Shown here: piece by piece, positions 18,477 to 22,669 of the stretch
Layout of the letters: each line of letters begins with the position of its first letter
Position numbering within the stretch: position 1 is the stretch's first letter
Assembly: GCA_016195815.1 (NCBI GenBank)
Contig: JACPYX010000007.1
Coordinates: forward strand, 310,001 to 374,000
Length of the DNA stretch: 64,000 nucleotides
Direction of reading: 5' to 3'
DNA from: Chloroflexota bacterium
Lineage (GTDB): Bacteria > Chloroflexota > Anaerolineae > Anaerolineales > Villigracilaceae
Made by a program: the position numbers and the translations under genes
The notes under the pieces: generated by a model
The model's input: the letters and a program-made list of their open reading frames with translations, nothing else
Told to the model about the DNA's origin: nothing
Database searches by the model: none

Positions 18477-19391
18477 TCAACCGACTATCTTCAGAATGCC
18501 GGAATAAATGCCTGTTAAATTGTTCAAGCCGGACGCGAAAGCGGCGCGGGCCTCCGAGGAGCCGATCAACAGCCCGGGCACTTGCGCGTCTGTGTGCCGC
18601 CGCGTGGACAGGTCTTCCATGTTTCCGTGATCGGATGTGACGAGGATCAGGCCTTCGCCATCGTTCCAGTTTTCGATCAGGCCGCCCAGCACGTCATCGA
18701 ACACGTTCAATTGTTCAACCGCCCATTTCATATCCTGCTTATGTCCCGCATAATCGCTGGCCCAATATTCAAACAGGGAAAAATCAAATCGCCTGGCGAG
18801 TTCGGCAAGTTTCTTTCCAGCCTGGCGCGGCGTCAATTGCGGCGCGTCGTGGAATCCCAACATCCCGCGCCAGCCCGCGCCGATAAAATCGGCGGACAGC
18901 GCGTTGCCCGCGTACAGATCCTCTTTGGTGAAGAGCGGCAGCCCAGCCGAAGTGACTGCGAGGGGAATGGCCGAATAGAGTCGTTTGCCTGAATCCACGC
19001 TATCGAAATAACGCGGAGGATAAGCGTTGAGCAGGGCGGCCTTTTTATTTGCCTTTGTCAATCGCGAAAAGAGCGTGCCGTTGAGTAAATATTTTGCAAC
19101 CGCAGGATTTGGTTTTGGGCCGTAGTGTTCGCCGATCCCGGCCGGGACGTTGATGCCGGTCAACAAAACGGCCTGGCCCGTTGCAGATTGCGGCAGGCCG
19201 TTCACGCCGAGAGATGCGTCGAGAGATAGCAGGGTGGCGCGTTCGCCCACATAGGGCGCGGAGGCTGCTAATAGTTTCTGCCCGCCGAGCAAGTTTTGCA
19301 GGGTGGGCATCTCAACGTGTGCGAACGGATTGATTTCGGGATTATCCGCGCCGAGGCCGACGCCATCGAGGAAGATGAATAAGATTCGCAT
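18477..19391 (-). CDS. Alkaline-phosphatase-superfamily metalloenzyme (phosphoglycerate-mutase-like)
   Basis: A 304-residue enzyme with the superfamily metal sites: an N-terminal FIFLDGVGLG Asp, the nucleophile region LPQSATGQAVLLTG (Ser or Thr), and the C-terminal metal cluster VTSDHGNMED followed by a His in RRHTDAQVP. The layout resembles cofactor-independent phosphoglycerate mutase and phosphopentomutase without the inserted domain, so the exact substrate is open. It has no strong ribosome site; a heptad repeat begins two bases upstream of the ATG. Confidence 0.8.
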   Translation of the reverse strand: MRILFIFLDGVGLGADNPEINPFAHVEMPTLQNLLGGQKLLAASAPYVGERATLLSLDASLGVNGLPQSATGQAVLLTGINVPAGIGEHYGPKPNPAVAKYLLNGTLFSRLTKANKKAALLNAYPPRYFDSVDSGKRLYSAIPLAVTSAGLPLFTKEDLYAGNALSADFIGAGWRGMLGFHDAPQLTPRQAGKKLAELARRFDFSLFEYWASDYAGHKQDMKWAVEQLNVFDDVLGGLIENWNDGEGLILVTSDHGNMEDLSTRRHTDAQVPGLLIGSSEARAAFASGLNNLTGIYSGILKIVG

Positions 19392-19393
19392 AC

Positions 19394-19449
19394 CAGTAAT
19401 CAGTGTTCAGTAAACAATCGTCGGTGGTCAGTAATCAGTGATTGGTCGT
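19394..19449. repeat. Heptanucleotide repeat array between two genes
   Basis: Eight 7-bp units: CAGTAAT, CAGTGTT, CAGTAAA, CAATCGT, CGGTGGT, CAGTAAT, CAGTGAT, TGGTCGT. The array fills the gap to the metalloenzyme gene and supplies the last codons and stop codon of the methyltransferase (ITDY, stop). Confidence 0.8.
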
Positions 19450-20000
19450 TGATATAGGAACCAGGCCGAAGGGCGTTCGCGTTTATCCCAACCATCCGTG
19501 CGCGAGAGCAGATGAAGGCCCCGAGACTGGATCAAGTCCAAATCGGACGCGGCCAGCCCGGGTCCCGAAAGATGCGGTGCGGATTTGAAGAATCCGTACA
19601 TTAACCAGAATCCGCCCGGAGCGAGGACGCGACTCAGTTGAGTTAGGTAGTCCGTCTTTTTCTCGATGCCATGAAAACATCCGAGGTCAAGCGCAAGGCC
19701 GAACGGGCCATTGATGCCCTTTAGTTTGGTGGCATCGTTGACTTGAAGATCTGCTTTTATGTTTCGGGCTTTGCGTTTCGCGATTTGAATCGCTCGTGAT
19801 GCAAAATCAATGCCTGTGACCTGCCAGCCATGCTGTGCTAATGTGATGACGTTTGTGCCGGTGCCACAGCCAATATCAATGGCGCGGCCCGCCGGATGAT
19901 TGGCGATGAACTCGATCAGTTCTGGCGGAGAAATGCCACTGTCCCAGGGCGGGCTTTGCAGATACCAGAGATTGAAGGAAAGGCGGCGGAGAAAACTCAT
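19428..20000 (-). CDS. Class I SAM-dependent methyltransferase
   Basis: A 190-residue methyltransferase. Motif I is AIDIGCGTGTNV; post-I Asp is in VTGIDFAS; LDLGCFHGI and RVLAPGGFWLMYGFF follow. I start at the ATG 19998-20000, which overlaps the stop of the upstream thioredoxin gene (ATGA), rather than at an upstream in-frame ATG lying within that gene. The C-terminus runs into the heptad repeat. The substrate is unknown; coupling to the thioredoxin gene hints at a shared function but proves none. Confidence 0.85.
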   Translation of the reverse strand: MSFLRRLSFNLWYLQSPPWDSGISPPELIEFIANHPAGRAIDIGCGTGTNVITLAQHGWQVTGIDFASRAIQIAKRKARNIKADLQVNDATKLKGINGPFGLALDLGCFHGIEKKTDYLTQLSRVLAPGGFWLMYGFFKSAPHLSGPGLAASDLDLIQSRGLHLLSRTDGWDKRERPSAWFLYQRPITDY

Positions 20001-20482
20001 TGCCTGATCGAGTCTCTTACGCGTTGCGGGTCGATTTCGCCGACGATGCGCCATTGTTCGTTGCCTTGCGCGTCGAAGAAGATGAAGGTGGGCGTGTACT
20101 CGAAATCATAAACTGGGGCCAGTTCTCGTCCGACCGGCTCTTGAATGTTCAGGCGCATGACCTCAAGCCTGCCGCTCAATTCTTTCTCCAGCCCATCCAC
20201 GATGGGTTTCTGTGCGGTGCAAACAATTCAATACGGTGATTGGAATTCAAGCAGGACGGGTTTGCCCGCACCGATCATGGCTTGCACGGCTTTAGCGTTG
20301 TCCATCAATGGAGTGGCGCGCGGGTGCAGGATGATCCAGCTGATCAATAAGCCCGCTGTAATGACGCCGAACGACACGAAATCCCTGGCCTTCGGTTTGT
20401 TGGTCAGCAAAACCAGCGCGGCCACCAGCGTCAGGCCGAGCGCAATCCACAGGAACGAATAAGTCCAAAATATCTCTTCCAT
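19997..20482 (-). CDS. Membrane-anchored thioredoxin-like protein with in-frame TGA at the active site (probable selenoprotein)
   Basis: The 161-codon frame is complete if the TGA at 20228-20230 (codon 85) is read through. Before it are two membrane segments (about residues 6-26 and 35-51) and the thioredoxin strand KPVLLEFQSPY. After it come IVC, TAQKPIVDGLEKEL and the cis-Pro strand EYTPTFIFFD. The TGA occupies exactly the first Cys of the CxxC motif, giving UIVC if selenocysteine is inserted. A hairpin 16-39 nt downstream resembles a bacterial SECIS. Without read-through it would be a broken gene of two pieces. Its stop overlaps the methyltransferase start. No sel genes are in the window. 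Confidence 0.75.
20189..20212 (-). promoter_or_regulatory. Putative bacterial SECIS hairpin
   Basis: In the mRNA a stem CAG-AAA-CCCATC / GATGGG-CTG with loop GTG starts 16 nt after the TGA, with the apical loop about 27 nt away. Bacterial SECIS elements typically place the loop 16-37 nt downstream with a G in the first two loop positions; this one fits. Confidence 0.5.
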
Positions 20483-20587: not shown

Positions 20588-22669
20588 ATGAAAGAGTATA
20601 CCACTGAGTTTCTACGCAATATCGCGCTGGTCTCGCACGGCAGCGCGGGTAAAACCATGTTGGCTGAATCGTTTTTGCATATCACGGGGGCAACAACTCG
20701 TCTCGGCAAGATAGATGATGGAAGCACGGCTTCTGATTACGACGAGGAAGAAGTGCGACGCAAGATTTCCCTGTATGCCACTGTTCTGCCAATCGAATAC
20801 CGCGACCATAAGATCAATGTGCTCGACGCGCCTGGCTTTACCGACTTCGTCGGCGAAGTGATTTCCGCCCTGAGTGTGGCCGACAGCGCGGTCGTGTTGA
20901 TTGATTCGGTGGCGGGGCTTGAGGTGGGCACTGAGGTTGCCTGGCGTTATGCCGATGAGTTTAACCTGCCGCGCTTCGTGGTGATCAATAAACTTGACCG
21001 CGACAATGCCAATTATGAAAAGGCCTACGCGTCAATGGAAGAATACGCGCACGCCGGCGGGCATCGCCTGGTCAAAGTGCAATTGCCAATCGGCGAGAAG
21101 CACGATTTCAAGGGTGTGGTGGATTTGATCTCGATGAAGGCTTTCATGGGTGACGGCAAAACCGTGACTGATATTCCAGCCGACATGCTGGATGCGGCCA
21201 GGGAAGCCCACCGGATTCTGGTCGAGGCTGCCGCGGAAGGCGAAGATACCCTGCTCGAAAAATATCTCGAAGCCGGTTCTCTCTCGGACGAGGAACTGAT
21301 CGTCGGCCTAAAGGATGTTGTCCGCTCTGGAGACTTTATCCCGGTCTATTGCGCCGCAGGCGGACGCGAAATTGGCGTCGTGCCGCTCCTGAACGGCATT
21401 GTGGATTTAATGCCTTCACCCGGACACGCCCAGCCGCGTATTGCAAAAGGCAAAGATAGTGAAGAGAAACTGCCCGCTTCAGATGCCGGCCCGCTGGCCG
21501 CTTATGTCTGGAAAACGACTGCCGATCCGTTCGTGGGGCGTATGACCTATTTCCGCGTGATTAGCGGAACTATTCAAGGCGATGCCCGCTTGTGGAATCA
21601 AAATAAGAATGCGGAAGAGCGCATGTCCGGCCTGCACATTCAGCGCGGCAAAGAACAGATTGCAGTCAAAGTGATCCATGCTGGCGATATCGGTTCGGTG
21701 GCCAAGTTGAACGTCACTGCCACGGGTGATACCTTGTGTGATAAAAACCATCCGTTGACAGTTGCGCCGCCTAAATTCCCGGCTGCGTTGTACCGGGTTG
21801 CCATTGCACCCAAGACACAGGCCGACGCCGCAAAAATCTCGCCGACGCTCACGCGCCTGTGCGAGGAAGATATGACGCTTTCGTGGCATAACGAACATGC
21901 CACCGGCGAGACTGTGTTACAGGGCATGGGCGACCAGCATATTGACGTTGCCATCCATCGCGCGCAGACCAAATTCCAGGTGGGACTTGTTTCGCATGAA
22001 CCAAAGATTCCCTATCGCGAAGGAATTACCAGGAAGGCATCCGCGCAATATCGTCACAAAAAACAATCGGGCGGTTCGGGACAATTTGGCGAAGTCCATT
22101 TGCGGATCGAGCCGCTGCCGTCTGCTGATTTTGAGTTTACCGATGAATTGGTTGGGATGAATCTGTCCAAATCCTACCTGCCTGCCATTGAGAAGGGCAT
22201 TGCGGCCACGATGCAGCACGGCGCGTTTGCGGGCTATCCGATGAGCAATGTCAAGATCATCGTTTATGATGGCAAAGAACATCCGGTAGACTCGAAGCCG
22301 GTCGCTTTTGAAATCGCCGGACGCGAAGCCTTTAAGCTCGCAGTCGCGGACGCAGGTCCCGTTCTTTTTGAACCGATCATGAAAGTGAATATCATCGTCC
22401 CTGATGCCAACATGGGCGATGTGATGAGCGACTTGAACACACGCCGCGGCCGCGTGCAGGGCACGGAAGCCGAGCGCGGCAGTACGGTGGTGGTGGCGCA
22501 TGTGCCTTTGGCAGAAATGCTTCGCTACACATCGCAGTTGCGTTCCATTACGGGTGGGCGCGGGTACTTCACAATGGAATTGGATCATTACGATGTGGTT
22601 CCATCGCACATCGCAGGCGTGATCGTTGAAGCCCACAAGAAGGAAATGGAAGCCAAGAAGGAAGAGTAG
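20588..22669 (+). CDS. Elongation factor G-like GTPase (EF-G2 type)
   Basis: A 693-residue translational GTPase with the EF-G domain order. G1 is SHGSAGKTM, G3 is DAPGF in place of the canonical DTPGH, and G4 is NKLDRD. The DAPGF variant and the start of the protein match the EF-G2/FusA-like paralogue group rather than the housekeeping EF-G. The catalytic His after DxPG is replaced by Phe, so GTP hydrolysis may be altered. It stands alone, with its own promoter and terminator, not in a str operon. The role may be translocation under special conditions or ribosome recycling. Confidence 0.88.
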   Translation: MKEYTTEFLRNIALVSHGSAGKTMLAESFLHITGATTRLGKIDDGSTASDYDEEEVRRKISLYATVLPIEYRDHKINVLDAPGFTDFVGEVISALSVADSAVVLIDSVAGLEVGTEVAWRYADEFNLPRFVVINKLDRDNANYEKAYASMEEYAHAGGHRLVKVQLPIGEKHDFKGVVDLISMKAFMGDGKTVTDIPADMLDAAREAHRILVEAAAEGEDTLLEKYLEAGSLSDEELIVGLKDVVRSGDFIPVYCAAGGREIGVVPLLNGIVDLMPSPGHAQPRIAKGKDSEEKLPASDAGPLAAYVWKTTADPFVGRMTYFRVISGTIQGDARLWNQNKNAEERMSGLHIQRGKEQIAVKVIHAGDIGSVAKLNVTATGDTLCDKNHPLTVAPPKFPAALYRVAIAPKTQADAAKISPTLTRLCEEDMTLSWHNEHATGETVLQGMGDQHIDVAIHRAQTKFQVGLVSHEPKIPYREGITRKASAQYRHKKQSGGSGQFGEVHLRIEPLPSADFEFTDELVGMNLSKSYLPAIEKGIAATMQHGAFAGYPMSNVKIIVYDGKEHPVDSKPVAFEIAGREAFKLAVADAGPVLFEPIMKVNIIVPDANMGDVMSDLNTRRGRVQGTEAERGSTVVVAHVPLAEMLRYTSQLRSITGGRGYFTMELDHYDVVPSHIAGVIVEAHKKEMEAKKEE

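Follow-up and report, generated by a model that had tools for sequence, protein, structure and literature searches.

Gene organization of the locus

The window, a 64,000-nucleotide stretch of a Chloroflexota genome, carries on its minus strand a single reading frame (20482-19997) with exactly one internal TGA, at 20230-20228. An earlier note, drawn from the letters of this DNA, had joined the two half-frames across this codon without naming a strand and had placed the TGA at the first Cys of a thioredoxin CxxC motif; both observations hold. The gene starts with an ATG at 20482-20480, and its product, with the TGA read as selenocysteine (Sec, U), would comprise 161 amino acids (...LLEFQSPY-U-IVCTAQKP...). 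The internal TGA corresponds to the first active-site residue (SPY-U-IVC), which would be Sec85 of a UxxC motif. As the note had anticipated, the open reading frame listing under translation table 11 divides this frame into two fragments, one of 84 amino acids (20482-20228) and one of 67 amino acids (20200-19997) that has a GTG start and lacks the active site; standard annotation is thus likely to miss the gene. Its terminal TGA (19999-19997) overlaps the ATG (20000-19998) of the next gene. The features of the locus are collected in Table 1.

Table 1. Features of the putative Sec-thioredoxin locus, with positions in the window except where loci are named
Feature	Position	Strand	Basis
Metalloenzyme-superfamily protein (phosphoglycerate mutase-like)	18477..19391	-	PF01676, 70.3 bits
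Class I SAM methyltransferase	19428..20000	-	PF13649, 63.6 bits; ATG overlaps the thioredoxin stop (ATGA)
Putative Sec-thioredoxin coding sequence, 161 aa	19997..20482	-	Frame reading and relatives
Thioredoxin domain, residues 61-161	20000..20302	-	PF00085, PDB fold matches, Pro131
cis-Pro131 codon	20092-20090	-	Invariant in 79 rows
Putative SECIS-type hairpin	20191..20207	-	Pairing, covariation, bSECIS model fit
TGC, resolving Cys88 of UxxC	20219..20221	-	Invariant in the 79-row alignment; Cys in 96/96 Sec and 26/26 Cys loci
In-frame TGA, predicted Sec85, first residue of UxxC	20228..20230	-	Only TGA, TGC or TGT there in 122 orthologue-like loci
Predicted membrane helix 2, residues 32-52	20327..20389	-	AlphaFold2; hydropathy
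Predicted membrane helix 1, residues 9-27	20402..20458	-	AlphaFold2 helix; hydropathy >1.6
EF-G-like GTPase, divergent neighbour	20588..22669	+	NF009381, 862 bits vs 583
Paralogous-group site, L107	3209-3256	-	
Paralogous-group site, L108	4020-4067	+	
Paralogous-group site, L109	4156-4203	-	
Paralogous-group site, L110	4109-4156	-	
Paralogous-group site, L111	1761-1808	+	

Relatives and the codon at position 85

At E 0.001, 148 of the 152 family genomes gave a match, other thioredoxins included. From these matches 87 loci were extracted, leaving out fragments, most of the weaker matches and L073, L112 and L113, which duplicate other loci of the set. At the aligned codon, 66 of these loci have TGA and 21 have TGC or TGT. 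Five of the TGA loci (L107-L111) form a paralogous group and were excluded from the combined counts. Across the order, 118 of 400 genomes gave a match at E 1e-20; the 53 of them that lie outside the family hold 55 matches, among which TGA prevails (50 with one internal TGA and 5 stop-free). Forty of the 55 were fetched, including all five stop-free ones, and comprise 35 TGA and 5 Cys loci.

The resulting set of 122 orthologue-like loci has TGA in 96 (hereafter Sec loci), TGC in 18 and TGT in 8, with nothing else at this codon. Relatives with Cys and further relatives with TGA are therefore both present, and the argument of the earlier note that a random stop would hardly land on this codon is borne out. 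Position 88 is Cys throughout. The nearest relative from the same genus shares 74% identity over the protein, and the frame past the TGA stays open and conserved.

Loci from genomes with record titles, 80 kept of 83, consist of 54 TGA and 26 Cys forms, a ratio that is no fair census, given that the set overlaps the main one and that one of the two patterns used in the search has Cys as its last residue. Seventy-seven of the 80 titles are Chloroflexota (Chloroflexi, Anaerolineales, Anaerolinea and the like). The remaining three, all Cys forms with 47-57% identity, are contigs of metagenome-assembled genomes titled Akkermansia muciniphila (two) and Verrucomicrobia UBA6082 (L191, L192 and L198), which may reflect mislabelled bins, contamination or transfer. 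One matched stretch, G092:C48:22516-22989, shows two TGA codons, the second of which may be the terminal stop.

Conserved gene neighbourhood

Neighbours were sought in the 122 loci by tblastn with the window's own proteins, a procedure that misses diverged neighbours. The downstream sequence extends for 600 nt or more in 116 of these loci, and the upstream sequence for 1000 nt or more in 119. A relative of the methyltransferase occurs in 87 of the 122, always downstream and on the same strand; its distance from the thioredoxin stop falls between -60 and +150 nt in 86 of these 87, with a median of -3 nt. A metalloenzyme relative occupies the same strand in 84 of the 122 loci, and in 103 the EF-G-like gene is encoded on the opposite one. 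The methyltransferase also matches the TPMT (29.4 bits) and TehB (23.5 bits) profiles, each barely above its cut-off. Judged by these matches it is a member of a broad superfamily, whose substrate cannot be named from profiles. None of the three annotated neighbours (methyltransferase, metalloenzyme and EF-G-like protein) is recognizable as a redox partner.

A SECIS-type hairpin behind the TGA

In the window, a stem of six pairs, CCCAUC/GAUGGG (20206-20201 / 20197-20192, minus strand), encloses the loop GUG (20200-20198), and a seventh, outer position (20207/20191) is an unpaired A-C. The hairpin of the family likewise has a six-pair stem and a three-base loop, GUN, whose first base comes after 27 nt from the TGA. 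The bSECIS model, with the values given in PMC13188914, calls for a loop of 3-9 nt, a stem of 4-16 bp, a G in the first two loop positions, a spacing of 16-37 nt and an energy of at most -7.5 kcal/mol. The window hairpin fits these values, with a 3-nt loop, a 6-bp stem, G in first place, a spacing of 27 nt and an energy of -9.7 kcal/mol when 48 nt are folded, or -7.9 when the 25-nt hairpin is folded by itself. Its stability is not significant (z -0.19 for 48 nt, with 72 of 200 shuffles folding as well, and -1.64 for 25 nt), and when the window stretch is shuffled synonymously, 873 of 20000 versions likewise have all six pairs.

Across the relatives, all 96 Sec loci form four to six of the six stem pairs (mean 5.44), whereas the 26 Cys loci average 2.35 pairs, 24 of them having 0-3, one 4 and one 6. 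Synonymous codon shuffling yields a mean of 3.75 pairs, and the largest of 1000 run means is 4.07, against the observed 5.44. Covariation was assessed in set A1, which holds 66 TGA sequences (63 distinct), the five paralogous rows included. Here 85.5% of cells are paired, 18 cells in four pairs have changed on both sides, and the covariation score is 0.150. For the 35 TGA loci of other families, the corresponding values are 88.6% paired, 29 doubly changed cells and a score of 0.300. In each set, none of 500 shuffles matched any of these three measures, although the shuffles ignore relatedness and the structure came from the very sequences tested. Two further measures are less clear: the number of doubly changed pairs was equalled by 17/500 shuffles in A1 and 325/500 in the other families, and further pair types by 26/500 and 5/500, respectively. 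In the 21 Cys sequences of the family, pairing (36.7%) equals that of their shuffles (35.9%).

At columns 28/36, GC predominates in A1 (51/63) and AU in the other families (20/35), and the third stem pair is unpaired in 24 of the 63 distinct A1 rows, mostly as a C-A mismatch. Sliding the partner by one to three columns lowers pairing to 22-54%, which is no independent control, the structure being derived from these sequences; comparison with Cys loci and with shuffled codons serves better. Folding energies differ modestly between Sec and Cys stretches (mean -11.5 vs -9.2; Mann-Whitney p 0.006) and alone would not have decided the question. Taken over the aligned loci, the predicted hairpin goes with the TGA form and not with the Cys form.

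In all 96 Sec loci the ninth codon after the TGA (residue 94) is GTC, ATC or GCC (Val, Ile or Ala) and nothing else, whereas the 26 Cys loci show a variety of codons there. This pattern suggests that residues under the hairpin are freed where Sec is gone, a case of an RNA signal shaping a protein. At the twelfth codon, Sec loci have Gly, Glu, Arg or, once, Ser, and Cys loci most often have Ala.

Sec-decoding machinery

The genome of the window is a draft of 3.16 Mb in 23 contigs with a completeness of 97.88%. The earlier note had named selA, selB, selD and tRNA-Sec as the genes to look for and had regarded a genome lacking selB or selC as evidence against a selenoprotein. All four are present: selB (352 bits vs a cut-off of 242), a tRNA-Sec (69.8 bits vs a gathering score of 47) with the anticodon TCA according to ARAGORN, selA (538 vs 268) and selD (349 vs 125). 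Sec decoding is therefore possible in this genome. The selD gene (L051, G000:C5:18226-19158, minus strand) carries an in-frame TGA of its own and reads CAG-U-ASK (CAGUASK). Searches at E 0.001 for tRNA-Sec, selB and selD return matches in all 14 control genomes; counted over the cut-off, the controls have tRNA-Sec in 5, selB in 2, selD in 2 and selA in 1. Of the 152 genomes of the family, 141 gave a selA match and 131 a tRNA-Sec match.

A second selB candidate (C7:47-916; 200 bits, under the cut-off) was rejected, as its sequence looks like that of an EF-Tu gene truncated where the contig stops, and weaker tRNA-Sec matches (42.9 bits and lower), being under the gathering score, were left uncounted. 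When the same genome was scanned with our SECIS model R1, which is too family-specific for counting a selenoproteome, only the site in the window was strong (56.1 bits). The next matches (20.1, 17.3 and 14.4 bits) skip the stem, align to the unpaired part only, and were dropped as candidates for further selenoproteins.

Thioredoxin domain, fold and predicted membrane topology

The protein passes the Pfam profiles PF00085 (35.2 bits vs a gathering score of 23.5) and PF13098 (31.9 vs 27). Positions 85 (U counted as C), C88 and P131 are invariant in the alignment of 79 rows. An AlphaFold2 model built on this alignment, with Cys in place of Sec, shows two helices followed by a thioredoxin fold, in which residue 85 immediately precedes a helix at 86-101 (pLDDT 86.2; pTM 0.62, a value that leaves the placement of the helices relative to the domain unsure). 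Together with the invariant Pro131, the model agrees with the two membrane helices and the thioredoxin domain with cis-Pro that had been read from the translation. Fold comparison with the PDB gives thioredoxins or thioredoxin fusions as the top matches (best E 2.6e-9), and the best sequence matches are likewise thioredoxins (best E 4.9e-11).

Under the positive-inside rule, a positively charged loop marks the cytoplasmic side of a membrane protein. Of the 79 rows, 73 have a net positive loop between the helices (residues 28-34) and 6 a neutral one. Most N-termini are neutral (54, against 19 negative and 6 positive), and the stretch past helix 2 is most often negative (43, against 22 neutral and 14 positive). 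Because of the positive loop, the thioredoxin domain and both the N and C ends are predicted, with less assurance than the helices themselves, to lie outside the cytoplasm.

Exchange of Sec and Cys

In a quick tree of the 79 rows (58 Sec, 21 Cys), the Sec/Cys state changes at least 8 times, a count taken from a weak tree in which 37 of 76 inner branches are open, from which no direction of change was inferred, and which kept the columns under the SECIS that may draw Cys rows together. The idea that Cys forms arose because their genomes had lost the Sec trait found no support: of the 21 genomes of the family that carry such a form, only G030 yielded no selA and only G056 and G145 no tRNA-Sec, which leaves 20 with selA, 19 with tRNA-Sec and none lacking both. 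With forms that seem to have exchanged so often, the family could serve as a natural experiment on Sec versus Cys.

Comparison with known selenoproteins

Sec-thioredoxins with a UxxC motif are an already established kind of protein. Table 1 of PMC13188914 lists a Sec-thioredoxin (PF00085, UxxC) as experimentally verified, and Trx UxxC and other Sec-thioredoxin-like families are on record there. Compared by this table description, our protein is similar in passing PF00085, in its UxxC motif and in a TGA followed by a bacterial SECIS-type hairpin; it differs in its two N-terminal membrane helices, its predicted location outside the cytoplasm and its centre in the Anaerolineales. By the curated cut-off of the thioredoxin equivalog TIGR01068 (39.4-39.7 bits vs 96.8), it would not be a TrxA equivalog. 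The same table gives a Sec thiol:disulfide interchange protein (PF13098, UxxC) as predicted with high confidence. Ours resembles that description in its PF13098 match and its UxxC motif, and the table entry is silent on membrane helices and neighbours.

The only selenoprotein-named model in the NCBIfam list is TsoB (NF045694, rhodanese/DsbD fusion-like), which the protein matches at 14.7 bits (E 0.006) and which 23 of the 79 family members match at E 0.001. Unlike TsoB, the protein has one Sec and not two; its score lies far from the cut-off of 805 bits, and the match spans only positions 443-559 of 572. No cut-off in the NCBIfam lists is passed by this protein or by the first family member shown.

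Neither "Chloroflex" nor "Anaerolin" occurs in the text of PMC13188914 or of PMC9312934, and we found no description of this protein in the titles and abstract starts of the open-licence literature, though one may exist elsewhere. Three Chloroflexi selenoproteins appear in PMC1794560. For Anaerolineales single-cell genomes, PMC4959059 mentions Sec formate dehydrogenases, and for Anaerolinea thermophila UNI-1 a Sec elongation factor in the absence of any dehydrogenase annotation with Sec. Selenoproteins of the thioredoxin type, like the present one, might explain why the machinery is retained. What is new here is the predicted combination of a membrane anchor, a centre in the Anaerolineales and conserved neighbours in a Sec-thioredoxin. 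Such a membrane-anchored selenium thioredoxin is very probably common to many Anaerolineales.

Proposed function and alternative readings

The gene is almost certainly intact rather than broken, and appears to encode Sec in a membrane-anchored thioredoxin. The earlier suggestion of a likely selenoprotein gains support from the Sec machinery, from a codon that is otherwise only Cys and from a hairpin tied to the TGA form. Comparative data speak strongly for the Sec coding, the SECIS, the fold and the membrane helices. With the hairpin, whose loop starts 27 nt behind the codon, as a guide, SelB and Sec-tRNA would decode the internal TGA (20230-20228) as Sec, and translation would end at the terminal TGA of the same gene (19999-19997). 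Anchored by two N-terminal helices, the thioredoxin domain would lie on the extracytoplasmic side and most likely act as a thiol-selenol/disulfide oxidoreductase, exchanging electrons with disulfide bonds in envelope or secreted proteins. In such an exchange, Sec85 would attack and Cys88 would resolve the selenyl-sulfide. The direction of electron flow, the redox partner and the substrate can only be guessed. The genome holds one VKOR gene (100.3 bits vs 27.5) and two DsbD_TM-like proteins (30.6 and 24.0 bits vs a cut-off of 27.1, one above it), so more than one electron donor or acceptor may come into question.

A selenoprotein working as an oxidase or isomerase, on the DsbA/VKOR side, and not as a reductase, is the alternative that survives best, and we regard it as somewhat unlikely. 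The VKOR gene and the predicted outside location of the domain would suit it, but the DsbD_TM-like proteins make both electron routes possible, the closest profiles are thioredoxins and not DsbA, and the low potential of selenyl-sulfides favours reduction.

The oxidoreductase could also belong to a wider selenium module of the Anaerolineales, a proposal that we put forward as speculative and quite unlikely to hold in full. In it, a Sec-thioredoxin operon with its own methyltransferase and metalloenzyme would form a dedicated extracytoplasmic thiol/selenol pathway, Sec insertion would be coupled to the methyltransferase through the ATGA overlap, and Sec and Cys would have been exchanged repeatedly in lineages that keep the machinery. 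If this were true, the price of keeping Sec could be read directly from sequences.

It is improbable that the TGA serves additionally as a regulated stop, at which low selenium would yield the 84-residue membrane piece and less methyltransferase, making the gene a selenium-sensing switch. Termination competes with Sec insertion in bacteria, and the ATGA overlap in the window and the median distance of -3 nt in 87 loci would fit such coupling; however, 16 of the 87 methyltransferase neighbours belong to Cys loci, so the pairing of thioredoxin and methyltransferase is independent of Sec.

Insertion of another residue, through genome-wide reassignment of TGA (e.g., to Trp or Gly) or readthrough by a near-cognate tRNA, is highly improbable. 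The frame would be open under any sense reading of TGA, but the gene itself ends at a TGA, as do 21 of 30 loci checked (the window's own included), which makes TGA a normal stop; moreover, Cys is the alternative in all 26 non-TGA loci, and Sec machinery is present. Reassignment of the code was rejected on these grounds.

The chance that a Cys codon (TGC or TGT) was mutated to or misread as TGA, in a pseudogene or by a sequencing error, is negligible, for although the genome is a draft in 23 contigs and standard calling splits the gene, the same TGA recurs in the 96 Sec loci, which span many genera and several families within the order, the hairpin covaries in TGA loci only and the frame beyond the TGA remains conserved, so that conservation across independently assembled genomes in effect refutes it.

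A second thioredoxin-like group

The paralogous loci L107-L111 constitute a second thioredoxin-like group with the motif EFF...-U-xxC, which takes the form EFFRFT-U in three of the five. The hairpin behind their TGA resembles that of the Sec-thioredoxin, and by motif and hairpin they are probably another selenoprotein group in these genomes.
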